NCBI GenBank assembly: GCA_903900235.1
Contig: CAIUMH010000051.1
Location: 1-53,610 of the forward strand
Reading direction: 5' to 3'
Origin: an uncultured Actinomycetes bacterium
GTDB lineage: Bacteria; Actinomycetota; Acidimicrobiia; Acidimicrobiales; RAAP-2
Length of the DNA: 53,610 nucleotides
The notes beneath the pieces are model-generated. The model made no database searches. It saw only the letters and a program-made list of their open reading frames with translations, and was not told the origin of the DNA. A program made the position numbers and the translations under genes. Below, piece by piece: positions 2,827 to 38,812 of the stretch. Position 1 is the stretch's first letter, and each line of letters opens with the position of its first letter.

Positions 2827-2917
2827 GTGCCCCGCTACGACGATCAGCGGGACGCCATCTGACCGATATCCTCTCCGGCGAGGGCAGGTCGCCCGAAGAA
2901 GACGTTGAGGATGCCCC

Positions 2918-3691
2918 ATGGCTGAGCTGCCCCCCACCGACACGCCCAGTCTTCTGGCGAGGCTTCCTGGCGTGACGGCTCTGGCCTTGACCATCGTCGC
3001 CAAGGCAGATCTTTCCCCGGCGATCATCGAGCTCGAGTTGGCCGGACCCCTCGAAGGCCTCGTCGCCGCTCCCGGCAATGACCTCATGCTTGCGGTTCCC
3101 GTCGAGGGAGGTGACGGATCGTTCCGTCGCCGCTATTCCATCCGGTCGATCGATGCCCACACAGGCCGGCTCCGCCTATGGATCGATCGCGCCGCCGGTG
3201 GTCCCGGCGCCCGATGGGCCGCGACGGCCGAGCTCGGGACAACCATCGAAGCCATCGGGCCACGCGGCAAGGTGACCCTCGACACGCTCGCCGACTGGCA
3301 CCTGTTCATCGGCGACCTCTCATTTCTCTCGGCCGCCTACAACATGGCCGAGGCCATCGAACCTCCGGGCCAGGCCCTCTTCGTCATTGAGGCCGACGAG
3401 CGATCACATCTTCCAATACCCGCCCTGGCCGACGGTATCGGCGTGACGATGGGGATCATCGAACGTCATGGTCGCGGCCTCGACGATCCCACCGGCCTGC
3501 TCGCTGGCCTCGCTGCGATCGATTTCCCCGAGGACGATGGTCACGTCTACATCGGCGGAGAGCTCCAGGTGGTCGCCGCCATGCGACGTTCCCTGATCGA
3601 GCGCGGCATCACTGCCGAGCAGATCAGCTCCAAGCCCTATTGGCGGCTCGGGACCTCCAATCTCGCCCACGGCGAGCCTCAGAAGTCCTGA
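2918..3691 (+). CDS. Siderophore-interacting protein (NAD(P)H-dependent ferric-chelate reductase family)
   Basis: Flavoprotein of the ViuB/YqjH siderophore-interacting family, which reduces ferric chelates in the cytoplasm to release iron. The 257-aa product has an N-terminal FAD-binding barrel with the flavin motif RRYS at 71-74, then a C-terminal NAD(P)-binding region. It ends with KPYWRLG at 239-245, close to the family's KxYWRxG signature. Length is typical. It is a lone gene, divergent from ftsK and convergent with rnj, and no siderophore transport genes are adjacent. A weak GAGG ribosome binding site lies 7 nt before the ATG. The substrate cannot be told from sequence. Confidence 0.85.
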   Translation: MAELPPTDTPSLLARLPGVTALALTIVAKADLSPAIIELELAGPLEGLVAAPGNDLMLAVPVEGGDGSFRRRYSIRSIDAHTGRLRLWIDRAAGGPGARWAATAELGTTIEAIGPRGKVTLDTLADWHLFIGDLSFLSAAYNMAEAIEPPGQALFVIEADERSHLPIPALADGIGVTMGIIERHGRGLDDPTGLLAGLAAIDFPEDDGHVYIGGELQVVAAMRRSLIERGITAEQISSKPYWRLGTSNLAHGEPQKS

Positions 3692-3703
3692 CGTCAGGTC
3701 ACC

Positions 3704-5401
3704 TCACGTAGCGACGATCACCGGGACGATCATCGGCTTCTGGCGGGTCTTGTTGCCGATGTAGCGACCTAGTGCACGACGGGCCACCTTGTTCAGGCCC
3801 TCGATGTCGTGATTCTCCTCACGCAAGGCGGCTCGCAAGGCGTCTTCGACTGCTTTGGCGGCGTCCTTCGTCAGCATCTCGACAGGCGTCTTGCCCGCCC
3901 AGCCACGAGTCAGGACCTCCGGACCGGCCACGACCTCACGGTCGTGCAGGTCAACCGAGGCCACGACCATCACCATCCCTTCGGCCGCAAGAGTCTGGCG
4001 GTCACGCAAGACCCCATGGTCGACGTCACTGGCCGCACCATCGACATAGAGGTAGGCGGCAGGAACCTGTCCATCGAATCGAATGCCGGCAGCATCAAGC
4101 CGCACGACATCGCCGTCAGTGGCCTGGAGCACCCGGCCGGGATCGACCCCCATGGTTCGGGCAAGCTCGGCGTGGTGCTTCAAATGGCGATACTCGCCGT
4201 GGACCGGGATGAAGCAGTCAGGCTTGGTCAGCGACAGCAGGGTTGAGAGCTCCCCACGTCGAGCGTGGCCTGACACATGCACCGGTTCGTGCGCCGAATG
4301 GACGACCTCGCAGCCACGACGGTGGAGGTTGTTGATGACCTGCCCGACTCCGTACTCGTTCCCAGGAATCGGGTGGGCGCTCAGGATCACGACGTCATCC
4401 TCGCCGAGCTCAAGCCAGCGAGACTCGCCCTGGGCCATCAGCGACATCGCTGCCATGGGCTCACCTTGGGAGCCCGTCGACAGCACGCAGACCTCACCAT
4501 CGGGATGGGAGTCGATCTCGGTGATGTCGATCATCATCCCCTTGGGAATGGTGAGGATGCCCAACTTGCGGGCCAGTTCGACATTGTTCTTCATCGATCG
4601 ACCAAGCGTGGCCACCTTGCGGTTGTTGTCAGCCGCCGCGTCCACGATCTGCTGGATCCGGTGGAGGTGACTAGCGAAACAGGCAACAATGATCCGGCGC
4701 CCCGGCCGCATGGCGAAGATCCGCTTCAGGGTCACGCCCACGGTGGATTCGGAATCAGTGAAGCCAGGCTCCTCTGCGTTCGTGGAGTCGGCCAGCAAGA
4801 GACGAATGCCCTTGGTCTGCGCCAGTTCGCCGATCCTCGCGAGGTCAGTGCGACGCCCATCGACGGGTGCGAGGTCGATCTTGAAGTCTCCCGAGTGGAG
4901 GATCACCCCCTGTGGTGTGTGGAAGGCGATCGCCATGGCCGACGGAACCGAGTGAGTCACAGGGATGAACTCGACCGGGCAATCCCCGATCATCACCGTC
5001 TCGTTGTCCGCCACCTCGATGAATGTGGCTTTCTTCGACTGTCCCGCCTCACGCACACGGTGGGCGGCCATGCCAACGGTCAGGGCCGATCCGTAGACCG
5101 GAGCCTCGAGATCGCGCAGCAGGTAGGACAACCCGCCGACGTGGTCTTCGTGACCGTGGGTCAGCACGACGCCGTCGACCCGGTGGGCGTTGTCGCGAAG
5201 GAAGGTGAAGTCCGGCAGGACCAGGTCCACTCCGGGCATGTCGGGCTCCGGGAACATCAGCCCGACATCGATGACAATCAGTCGGCCGTTGACCTCGACA
5301 CAGGCGCAGTTGCGCCCGATCTCTCCGAGGCCTCCAAGGAAGATGACCCGAACATCATTCGAGGTCGGGGTGGACTCGTGGCGGTCAGGGCGCTTAGACA
5401 C
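3704..5401 (-). CDS. rnj: Ribonuclease J
   Basis: Metallo-beta-lactamase-fold RNase with 5'-to-3' exonuclease and endonuclease activity, used in mRNA decay and rRNA maturation. The 565-aa product has the zinc motif HGHEDH at 82-87, a second metal motif SGDFKID, the beta-CASP region, and a C-terminal domain ending in RYIGNKTRQKPMIVPVI. The GTG start is chosen because it overlaps the dapA stop (GTGTCTAA, 8 nt shared), so the two are probably translationally coupled. An ATG 18 codons upstream lies inside dapA and would add a low-complexity Ser/Pro stretch. With pnp and an RNase E/G in the same window, the core RNA-decay enzymes are well represented. Confidence 0.96.
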   Translation of the reverse strand: MSKRPDRHESTPTSNDVRVIFLGGLGEIGRNCACVEVNGRLIVIDVGLMFPEPDMPGVDLVLPDFTFLRDNAHRVDGVVLTHGHEDHVGGLSYLLRDLEAPVYGSALTVGMAAHRVREAGQSKKATFIEVADNETVMIGDCPVEFIPVTHSVPSAMAIAFHTPQGVILHSGDFKIDLAPVDGRRTDLARIGELAQTKGIRLLLADSTNAEEPGFTDSESTVGVTLKRIFAMRPGRRIIVACFASHLHRIQQIVDAAADNNRKVATLGRSMKNNVELARKLGILTIPKGMMIDITEIDSHPDGEVCVLSTGSQGEPMAAMSLMAQGESRWLELGEDDVVILSAHPIPGNEYGVGQVINNLHRRGCEVVHSAHEPVHVSGHARRGELSTLLSLTKPDCFIPVHGEYRHLKHHAELARTMGVDPGRVLQATDGDVVRLDAAGIRFDGQVPAAYLYVDGAASDVDHGVLRDRQTLAAEGMVMVVASVDLHDREVVAGPEVLTRGWAGKTPVEMLTKDAAKAVEDALRAALREENHDIEGLNKVARRALGRYIGNKTRQKPMIVPVIVAT

Positions 5402-36747: not shown

Positions 36748-37341
36748 TCAAGCGTACAGACCGTGCTCGTCGATGTGCCGGATGATGGCCTCCGGCACCC
36801 GGCCGGACACCGATACACCCTGTGCTACGTCACGGCGGATACTGGTGCTTGAGATGTCGAGCTCATCGCTCTCGAGCGCCACGCTGCGCCAGCCCCGCGG
36901 GAGTCGCAGGGGGCTTCCGGGTCGAGATACGACAGCGACGCGGACGAGCCTTCGCAGCTCGTCGGCTCGCTCCCACGTGTCGAGCGTGCCAGCGAGATCA
37001 GCCCCCACGACCAGCCACGGGAGCACCACCCCACCCTCGCCGAGCTGCTCAACGGTGTCGATGGTGTAGCTCGGTCCCCCGCGCTCGACCTCGAAGTCGC
37101 AGACTTCCAGGCCCTCATGGCCCTCGACCCCCAACTTCGCCATGGCCAGCCGCTCGACCGCGGGAGAGACCATTCGCCCTGGCGACTTCTGCCAAGGATC
37201 GTTGGCGACCACGATCAGCACGCTGGTCAGGCCGAGCGATTGGCGAGCCCGATCAGCCGCCGCCACATGGCCGAGGTGCAACGGGTCGAAGGTGCCGCCA
37301 AAGATCCCCACCGAACCCGGCTGCTGAGGCATCGCCACCAT
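36748..37341 (-). CDS. nadD: Nicotinate-nucleotide adenylyltransferase
   Basis: Makes deamido-NAD from nicotinate mononucleotide and ATP. The 197-aa product has [18 protein letters not shown] and a C-terminal block [13 protein letters not shown]. The ATG at 37341 is preferred because it overlaps the stop of a 16-codon upstream ORF and an AAGGGG site lies 3 nt before it; an ATG 9 nt further in is an alternative. A longer frame running to the DAHP synthase promoter is not conserved in type. Confidence 0.94.
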
Positions 37342-37391
37342 CAGCCCCTTCGACGCCAAGCACCGACGGTGGACCGATGCCGCTGAGCCAT
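37341..37391 (-). CDS. Leaderless 16-codon upstream ORF coupled to nadD
   Basis: ATG at 37391 lies exactly 6 nt after a TAGGCT -10 box, so it would be the first codon of the transcript. It encodes [16 protein letters not shown] and stops with a TGA that overlaps the nadD ATG (TGATG). The peptide itself shows no domain; its role, if any, would be to load ribosomes onto nadD. Confidence 0.5.
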
Positions 37392-37397
37392 CTTCCG

Positions 37398-37446
37398 AGC
37401 CTAGAACCTCGGTCGGCGACCGAGCCCACGCCACGTCCCGTAGCAT
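37398..37446. promoter_or_regulatory. Divergent promoter region of nadD and DAHP synthase with shared palindrome
   Basis: Minus-strand -10 TAGGCT (37398-37403) faces the upstream ORF and nadD. Plus-strand -10 TAGCAT (37441-37446) ends 7 nt before the DAHP synthase GTG. Between them is a perfect palindrome with 8-bp arms and a 1-bp centre (37408-37424, CTCGGTCG-G-CGACCGAG) that reaches the -35 region of both promoters. Confidence 0.55.
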
Positions 37447-37453
37447 CAGTGCC

Positions 37454-38812
37454 GTGACCGAGACCCGAGACCCTCAGGACTGGAGCCCCGGGTCCTGGCG
37501 CGCCCATGAGGCGGCCCAGCAGCCGACCTGGCCCGACGCTTCTGCGCTTGCGGCGATAGAGGCACACCTAGCCCTCCTGCCACCGCTCGTCTTCGCCGGC
37601 GAGGCGCGTCGCCTGTCGGCCGACCTCGCCGACGTTGCCGCCGGTCGGGCCTTCCTCCTCCAGGCCGGCGACTGTGCGGAGTCCTTCCACGACTCCGCCG
37701 CCGACCAGATCCGGGACAAGCTCAAAGTCATCCTGCAGATGGCTGTCGCCTTGACCTACGCCTCTGGCGTCCCGGTGGTCAAGGTCGGCCGGATCGCAGG
37801 GCAGTTCGCAAAGCCGCGATCGAGCGCTACCGAGGAGCGCGACGGCCTGGTGCTCGACTCGTTCCGGGGCCACATCGTTAACTCCGAGGTGTTCACCGCT
37901 GCCGATCGGACGCCGGACCCCACGCGCCTGCTTGAGGCCTACCACCAGTCGGTGGCGACGCTGAACCTGCTTCGTGCTTTCACCAAGGGTGGGTTTGCCG
38001 ACCTCAGTCAGGTCCACTCATGGAACCAGGAGTTTGTCGCATCGTCGCTCGAGGGTCAGCGCTACGAGACGATTGCAGGCGAGATCGACCGGGCGTTGCA
38101 CTTCATGGCTGCCTGTGGCATCGACTTATCGCGCGAGGGTTCGCTCCACGAGGTCGATTTCTACACCAGCCACGAGGCATTGATCCTGCCCTACGAACAG
38201 GCGCTCACCCGGATCGACTCAACAACCGGCGACGCCTACGACTGCTCGGCGCACATGCTCTGGATCGGTGACCGCACCCGCCAGATCGACGGCGCCCACG
38301 TCGAGTTCCTTTCCGGCGTCAAGAACCCCATCGGCATCAAGGTTGGACCCTCCGCCGACGTCGATGAGATCGCCGCTCTGTGTGACACGCTCGATCCCGG
38401 GATGACCCCAGGACGGCTCACGCTCATCACCCGCTACGGCGCCGACCGGGTGAGTGCCCATCTGCCGGAACTCATCGAGGCGGTTGGCCGCTCAGGGCAT
38501 CCAGTGGTGTGGGCATGTGACCCGATGCACGGGAACACCTTCACCTCGTCAAGCGGTCACAAGACCCGGCGCTTCGACGACATCGTGGCCGAGATCGCCG
38601 CATTCTTCGCCGTCCACCGATCTATGGGCACCTGGCCCGGTGGCGTGCACATCGAGCTCACCGGCGACGACGTGACCGAGTGCCTCGGCGGCTCGGAGTC
38701 CATCCTCGAGGGCCATCTGGCGGACAACTACACGACGATCTGCGATCCACGACTCAATGCTCGCCAATCGCTCGATCTGGCGTTCTTGGTCGCCGAGCAG
38801 CTCCGAGCCTGA
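37454..38812 (+). CDS. aroG: 3-deoxy-7-phosphoheptulonate synthase, class II
   Basis: Condenses PEP with erythrose 4-phosphate, the first step of the shikimate pathway. The 452-aa product is a class II (plant/mycobacterial-type) enzyme: WSPGSWR, metal Cys in [27 protein letters not shown], a [11 protein letters not shown] block, [18 protein letters not shown] and DPRLNA. The start is GTG with TAGCAT 7 nt upstream and no Shine-Dalgarno, so it is probably leaderless. The symbol follows mycobacterial usage. Confidence 0.96.

Follow-up and report, generated by a model that had tools for sequence, protein, structure and literature searches.

In an uncultured member of the Acidimicrobiales, the gene nadD is probably supplied with ribosomes by a leaderless fore-cistron of 16 codons, through termination-reinitiation, and this fore-cistron appears to have taken the place of a gene that was lost. 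The window, i.e., the whole stretch of 53,610 nucleotides that was analyzed, is a contig (C51) of a 2.40-Mb genome, referred to below as G000. The case suggests that uncultured Acidimicrobiales also possess leaderless coupled small ORFs of the type described in mycobacteria. The locus is of interest since small frames repeatedly appear there where other relatives carry a whole gene. It offers, at a single place, a comparative series consisting of the whole gene, the mini-ORF, and a direct leaderless start of nadD.

The nadD-aro intergenic region

In the window, nadD and the gene for a class II DAHP synthase (aro) are divergent, with 112 bp between the nadD ATG and the DAHP synthase GTG. The features of this region are as follows.

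36748-37341, minus strand: nadD, nicotinate-nucleotide adenylyltransferase (TIGR00482, 128.6 bits against a cut-off of 112.45; PF01467)
37341 (ATG), 37338 (GTG), and 37332 (ATG), minus strand: start options of nadD, read from the sequence
37341-37391, minus strand: upstream ORF of 16 codons, a leaderless candidate by its spacing, open frame, and 1-base TGA/ATG overlap; the layout is also seen in the related genome G033
37345-37350, minus strand: AAGGGG in the final part of the upstream ORF, read from the sequence; a possible weak Shine-Dalgarno sequence for nadD
37398-37403, minus strand: TAGGCT, putative -10 box for the transcription of nadD, separated by 6 nt (CGGAAG) from ATG 37391; kept with its flanking bases in G033
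37408-37424, no strand: 17-bp palindrome, situated between both promoters and in all likelihood due to chance, as judged from chance counts and the comparison with G033
37441-37446, plus strand: putative -10 box TAGCAT of the DAHP synthase gene, leaderless type, 7 nt before GTG 37454; kept in G033
37454-38812, plus strand: class II DAHP synthase, aro (TIGR01358, 705 bits against a cut-off of 614.7; PF01474)

The gene rsfS (TIGR00090) was also identified in the gene set. The best named match of the DAHP synthase in the contig collection, 84% identical, comes from the uncultured actinobacterium MAG AM-lipid-02-D3_bin-1372, and many of the other matches listed bear the labels Acidimicrobiaceae, Acidimicrobiia, or Acidimicrobiales. 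Three MAG records (L085, L101, and L119) that encode DAHP synthases 65 to 70% identical to that of the window carry the title Bifidobacterium breve. Their similarity is like that of the neighbouring Acidimicrobiales records, and these titles may be wrong.

A sequence-only reading of the window had drawn attention to a -10 box located 6 nt before an ATG, a 16-codon frame, and a TGATG junction with nadD. All three elements can be read directly from the DNA, and their coordinates are correct. The TGA stop of the upstream ORF (37343-37341) shares one base with the nadD ATG 37341, which places it at a spacing of -1 to this start and +2 to GTG 37338; AAGGGG lies 6 nt before GTG 37338 and 12 nt before ATG 37332. 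The spacing falls within the range of termination-reinitiation (-4 to +3), and the ORF, with its 16 codons and its end on the next start, falls within the range of the mycobacterial small ORFs (5 to 50 codons, ending at or near the next start). The stop-start overlap arose in 17% of the shuffles of the G000 spacer; taken alone it is weak, and it is notable only through its recurrence in relatives.

In the proposed mechanism, RNA polymerase would initiate 6 nt downstream of TAGGCT, on ATG 37391 or immediately beside it. A ribosome would bind the 5' end of the transcript at this leaderless ATG, read 16 codons, stop at TGA 37343-37341, and restart on the overlapping nadD ATG 37341 or on GTG 37338, perhaps aided by AAGGGG. 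The sequence of the peptide would be irrelevant, and only the positions of its start and stop would matter. The slot is envisaged to have held a leaderless F420-dependent oxidoreductase gene, after the loss of which both the leaderless start and the passing of ribosomes to nadD would have been kept or rebuilt.

An N-terminally extended NadD that starts at the leaderless ATG was rejected for G000, in which ATG 37391 is out of frame with nadD. In G033 (locus L003), the small frame contains, at 5 nt, a second ATG from which the reading frame continues into nadD, so that an N-terminally longer NadD made independently of coupling is possible there.

Small frames in related genomes

Eight of the genomes compared carry a small frame at a leaderless position upstream of nadD. 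The length of each frame and the position of its stop relative to a possible nadD start are listed below.

G000: 16 codons, stop at -1 (another start at +2), TGATG
G033: 17 codons, stop at -4 (another start at +2), GTGA
G006: 22 codons, stop at -11
G002: 64 codons, stop at +4
G061: 38 codons, stop at -4, GTGA
G062: 38 codons, stop at -4, GTGA
G026: 15 codons, stop at +3, in the nadD frame, with TAA three bases before the ATG
G025: 17 codons, stop at -4, ATGA

All eight stops fall between -11 and +4 nt from a possible nadD start. On the DAHP synthase tree, the small-frame state requires five changes, both with 46 genomes and with 44; the former tree had G065 and G074 mislabelled as having a direct nadD start, and the latter omits both. 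With a window of -4 to +4, for which the chance per small frame in shuffles is 2 to 42%, four of the five origins have their stop at nadD versus approximately one expected (P = 0.0013 to 0.0016, from shuffles). With a window of -11 to +4, which was set after seeing the data, all five do (P ∼5e-5).

The nearest genome compared, G033, has a DAHP synthase 92% identical to that of G000 and is the only one of the compared genomes to share its frame. The two frames have the same start and an overlapping stop, and this linkage is conserved above the level of the peptide, in which 8 of the 17 aligned positions are identical; the ungapped codons comprise 4 identical, 4 synonymous, and 9 non-synonymous ones. 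The peptides of other pairs show 20 identities in 38 positions (G061 and G062) and 2 in 25 aligned columns (G025 and G026). What is kept in the small frames, judging from these alignments, is a start at the presumed tip of the transcript and a stop at nadD, not the peptide. Conservation in relatives had been named as the decisive check of the sequence-only reading; the layout of the frame passed it in G033, whereas the peptide proved poorly conserved and the palindrome is broken there (see below). The suggestion that a leaderless frame is coupled to nadD is strengthened by this comparison, and such coupling of the 16-codon frame is likely.

An oxidoreductase gene in the slot of the small frames

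An oxidoreductase gene separates aro from nadD in 34 distinct loci, found in 31 family genomes and on three named contigs; it is encoded on the same strand as nadD and runs into it. Its start is found 5 to 9 nt after a TANNNT motif in each of the 34 loci, and its length is 309 codons in the five copies measured. The copy from G032 belongs to the F420-dependent LLM-class family TIGR03621 (284.6 bits against a cut-off of 213.15). In the genus of the window, the gene is present in four of the six genomes compared, G029, G030, G031, and G032, with the first three copies 66 to 72% identical to the G032 query. It was not found in G000 or G033, in which the best matches were partial and 39% and 37% identical, respectively. 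In many relatives (L004, positions 2917-3846, and the 33 other loci), the nadD transcript appears to begin, leaderless, with this F420-dependent LLM-class oxidoreductase gene.

On the DAHP synthase tree, G000 and G033 group with G032 with support values of 99/96. Three of the five places with small frames (g1, g2, and g17) have oxidoreductase genomes immediately around them. The genome closest to the small frame of g6 (G023) starts nadD directly, and the next one carries the oxidoreductase; the place of g3 is ambiguous on the tree. For the genus of the window, the simplest history, given a parsimony reading of this tree for the direction of change, would be that the common ancestor of G000 and G033 lost the oxidoreductase gene.

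The 64-codon frame of G002 resembles, at its start and its end, the oxidoreductase of its congeners and illustrates the form that a loss of this kind can take. A head as good was obtained in 5 of 500 shuffles and a tail as good in none; when compared with windows from the middle of the oxidoreductase, head and tail each scored 0 of 500. An oxidoreductase remnant in the G000 frame was looked for and not found, its head being matched in 213 and its tail in 66 of 500 shuffles. Among G033, G006, G061, G062, G025, and G026, no convincing remnant was found either, the best being a tail in G062 (locus L028) that was equalled in 46 of 500 shuffles. Since the G000 frame holds no detectable oxidoreductase sequence, calling it a remnant is unsupported, and its history is read from position and tree only.

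A more general reading, put forward tentatively, is that leaderless coupled mini-ORFs can be survivors of lost leaderless first genes of operons: a short frame that keeps the start and the stop-start hand-over would survive because the next gene would otherwise be untranslatable. The nadD slot might then display a series that leads from the intact gene (such as in G029 to G032) through the 64-codon intermediate of G002 to eroded frames. Frames of 15 to 38 codons, those of G000, G033, G006, G025, G026, G061, and G062, could possibly represent the eroded stage, and a nadD that is itself leaderless could conceivably be the end state. The series provides a testable proposal for the origin of leaderless mini-ORFs and, if the reading is true, there would be one origin for many unexplained leaderless small ORFs of actinobacteria.

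Predicted back-to-back leaderless promoters and the palindrome

The family search covered 172 genomes, of which 165 gave a DAHP synthase match; 144 regions were classed, the rest being partial or unlisted matches. Regions upstream of the DAHP synthase gene were gathered from the family genomes and the named contigs. Of the resulting 225 loci, 109 (98 distinct) have nadD less than 330 nt from the aro motif, 68 have it further away, and 48, including 19 from family genomes, lack the motif pair. Among the 98 distinct nearby regions, 85 have an ATG or GTG in the nadD frame 6 to 8 nt after TANNNT, eight have a small frame at the leaderless start, and five (L062, L091, L092, L102, and L165) have no leaderless candidate on the nadD side. 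Shuffled regions gave a mean of 1.3 and a maximum of 4 such nadD-frame cases in 20 rounds. Two loci, L009 and L186, with out-of-frame candidates of 1 to 2 codons besides the direct nadD start, were counted as direct. The 144 family genomes comprise 82 with a direct nadD start, 31 with the oxidoreductase, 8 with a small frame, 2 with nadD nearby and no candidate, 2 with nadD far away and something else in between, and 19 with no readable motif pair. Because of these counts, a nadD promoter with a leaderless start can be regarded as a trait of the family.

The most common hexamer at the place of the nadD -10 box is TAGGCT, found in 53 of the 93 tabulated regions. On the aro side, TANNNT precedes an in-frame start by 5 to 9 nt in 96 of the 98 regions (a raw count with no shuffle baseline), a result that supports the earlier proposal of a leaderless DAHP synthase promoter. 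The two -10 boxes are separated by 28 to 34 bp in 54 of the 93 regions; in both G000 and G033, the distance is 37 bp. As far as can be judged from these motifs, the kept feature of the region is two back-to-back leaderless promoters, and such a pair could link nadD and aro with no dedicated operator.

In the genus g2, the divergent -10 boxes lie only ∼6 bp apart (measured in L011, the locus of G002; by eye in L013, L015, L018, and L021), so that both promoters would hardly be usable at once.

The palindrome CTCGGTCGgCGACCGAG at 37408-37424 is exact, as had been reported, and covers the expected -35 place of both promoters. A scan for the sigma-70 consensus detected no site in the region 37200-37600, where none would be expected by chance either. 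Its perfection and its position are what speaks for an operator through which one factor would control both divergent promoters, and co-regulation of NAD and aromatic synthesis had been suggested on that ground. However, perfect palindromes of the 8+1+8 type number 4 in the window versus 3, 5, 0, 2, 0, 4, 3, 1, 0, and 2 in ten shuffles, and the whole genome contains 9 places with up to 2 mismatches to the palindrome versus 5 for the same pattern read backwards. A search of the whole genome found no second perfect copy. In G033, the sequence at this place is CTCGACCCGTGACCACC, which breaks the palindrome, while both -10 boxes and the adjacent bases are kept. A role as an operator is rejected on the chance-level counts and on the loss of the palindrome in the nearest genome compared. 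The palindrome is most likely due to chance, and a shared operator is highly improbable; the tempting notion of one operator common to NAD and aromatic synthesis is unsupported and is herewith removed.

Alternative explanations

The small frame might be incidental, with nadD using its own weak Shine-Dalgarno sequence, AAGGGG, in a transcript whose leader is 50 nt long; the ATG at the 5' tip would be left over from the leaderless start that was lost. The placement of AAGGGG 6 nt upstream of GTG 37338, an overlap that 17% of the shuffles reproduce, and the poor conservation of the peptide would all fit. This reading has difficulty with a layout that recurs in five places of the tree with stops at coupling distance. 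Besides, translation would be expected from an ATG that stands at the usual leaderless spacing, since G000 appears to use such starts (see below), which makes an incidental frame unlikely, albeit deserving of some weight. Less probable still is a regulatory attenuator, in which the peptide or its codons (e.g., the Arg-Arg-Arg near the end) would respond to some signal and adjust nadD. A run of three Arg codons is indeed kept in G000 and G033, and Cys-rich leaderless leaders are described in mycobacteria (PMC4633059). However, no comparable run, by eye, is common to the other six small frames, the peptide is otherwise poorly conserved, and a simple scan for terminators found none in the region 37200-37600.

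As the transcript start is a prediction, it could also be argued that nadD has no promoter here, that the signals are coincidental, and that the gene is read from elsewhere. Against this view, TANNNT at leaderless spacing, mostly as TAGGCT, is found family-wide, and also on the aro side, which renders the absence of a promoter very improbable. NAD-capping of the 5' A as a feedback device was dropped because a NAD-capped leaderless model mRNA is reported to be translated as efficiently as its uncapped counterpart (PMC11514452). Coupling of the leaderless fore-cistron to nadD remains the preferred reading.

Comparison with known systems

In mycobacteria, there is an over-representation of leaderless small ORFs whose stop lies on the following start, and in some cases the linkage persists through changes of the peptide (Shell et al. 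2015, PMC4633059). The nadD frame probably belongs to this kind, to which it adds a partly traceable history. It shares with the mycobacterial frames an ATG or GTG at the presumed tip of the transcript, a length of 5 to 50 codons, and a stop at the next start, and it shares with one mycobacterial example a linkage that is kept as the peptide changes. It differs in its Acidimicrobiales host, in the presence of an oxidoreductase gene in the same slot in relatives, and in being known from sequence alone. Shell et al. define a "coupled" class with an RTGA junction (spacing of -4; PMC4633059). The frames of G033, G061, and G062 (GTGA) and that of G025 (ATGA) have such a junction, whereas the G000 frame lies outside it because its junction is TGATG (-1).

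In Corynebacterium glutamicum, a leaderless bicistronic design works by such a hand-over from a fore-cistron, and its expression dropped when the start codon of the fore-cistron was altered (Liu et al. 2023, PMC10367133). The nadD case resembles this design in having a leaderless promoter and a short fore-cistron, here with predicted translation, before the target gene. However, the design was engineered with AGGAGG, whereas the nadD case is natural and has at best AAGGGG. Coupling is most efficient at spacings of -4 to +3, and the -1 spacing (TGATG) is enriched, according to the review by Brown and Wade (PMC12548453). With termination-reinitiation pairs in general (PMC12548453; Korolev et al. 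2016, PMC4833913), the nadD frame has in common the favoured spacing and an ORF that may do nothing but deliver ribosomes; leader ORFs of those pairs, as described in these two papers, are not required to be leaderless, whereas the G000 frame is of the leaderless type. The titles and abstract openings of the literature searched held no mention of a leaderless upstream ORF of nadD, which is no claim of its absence from print.

Leaderless-type starts elsewhere in the G000 genome

A 213-kb sample of the G000 genome, with home-made gene calls (181 genes), was scanned for leaderless starts. TANNNT was found 6 to 7 nt before an in-frame ATG or GTG at 35 starts, versus 0 to 7 for five alternative spacing pairs; with the reversed motif TNNNAT, there were 12 starts at the 6-to-7-nt spacing and 3 to 6 elsewhere. 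Leaderless spacing in this genome is above chance. Coupled frames, with the nadD case included, number 6 at a spacing of 6 to 7 nt versus 0 to 3 at other spacings for TANNNT, and one of these six is an ordinary 69-codon gene (in L251). For the reversed motif, there are 7 at this spacing and 2 to 8 elsewhere. A genome-wide excess of coupled leaderless frames is therefore not established, as the reversed-motif control yields as many.

Several of the individual cases have distinct layouts. The 69-codon gene at L251:3442-3651 (contig C6), with TAGCAT 6 nt before its ATG, looks by eye like a CcdA-type antitoxin and overlaps, by ATGA, a 102-codon frame that resembles, again by eye, a toxin partner. 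At L265:199-228 (C20), a 9-codon frame encoding MGQHRRGTR, with a spacing of 7 nt and AGGAGG inside, runs by ATGA onto an LLM-like oxidoreductase gene, a layout that resembles the engineered leaderless bicistronic design. Three more short frames at leaderless spacing, each with its end at the start of the larger gene that follows, precede, as judged by eye, a transporter-like gene (14 codons, L255:690, C10), a PHP-like gene (7 codons, L263:408, C18), and a membrane-protein-like gene (11 codons, L263:7465, C18).
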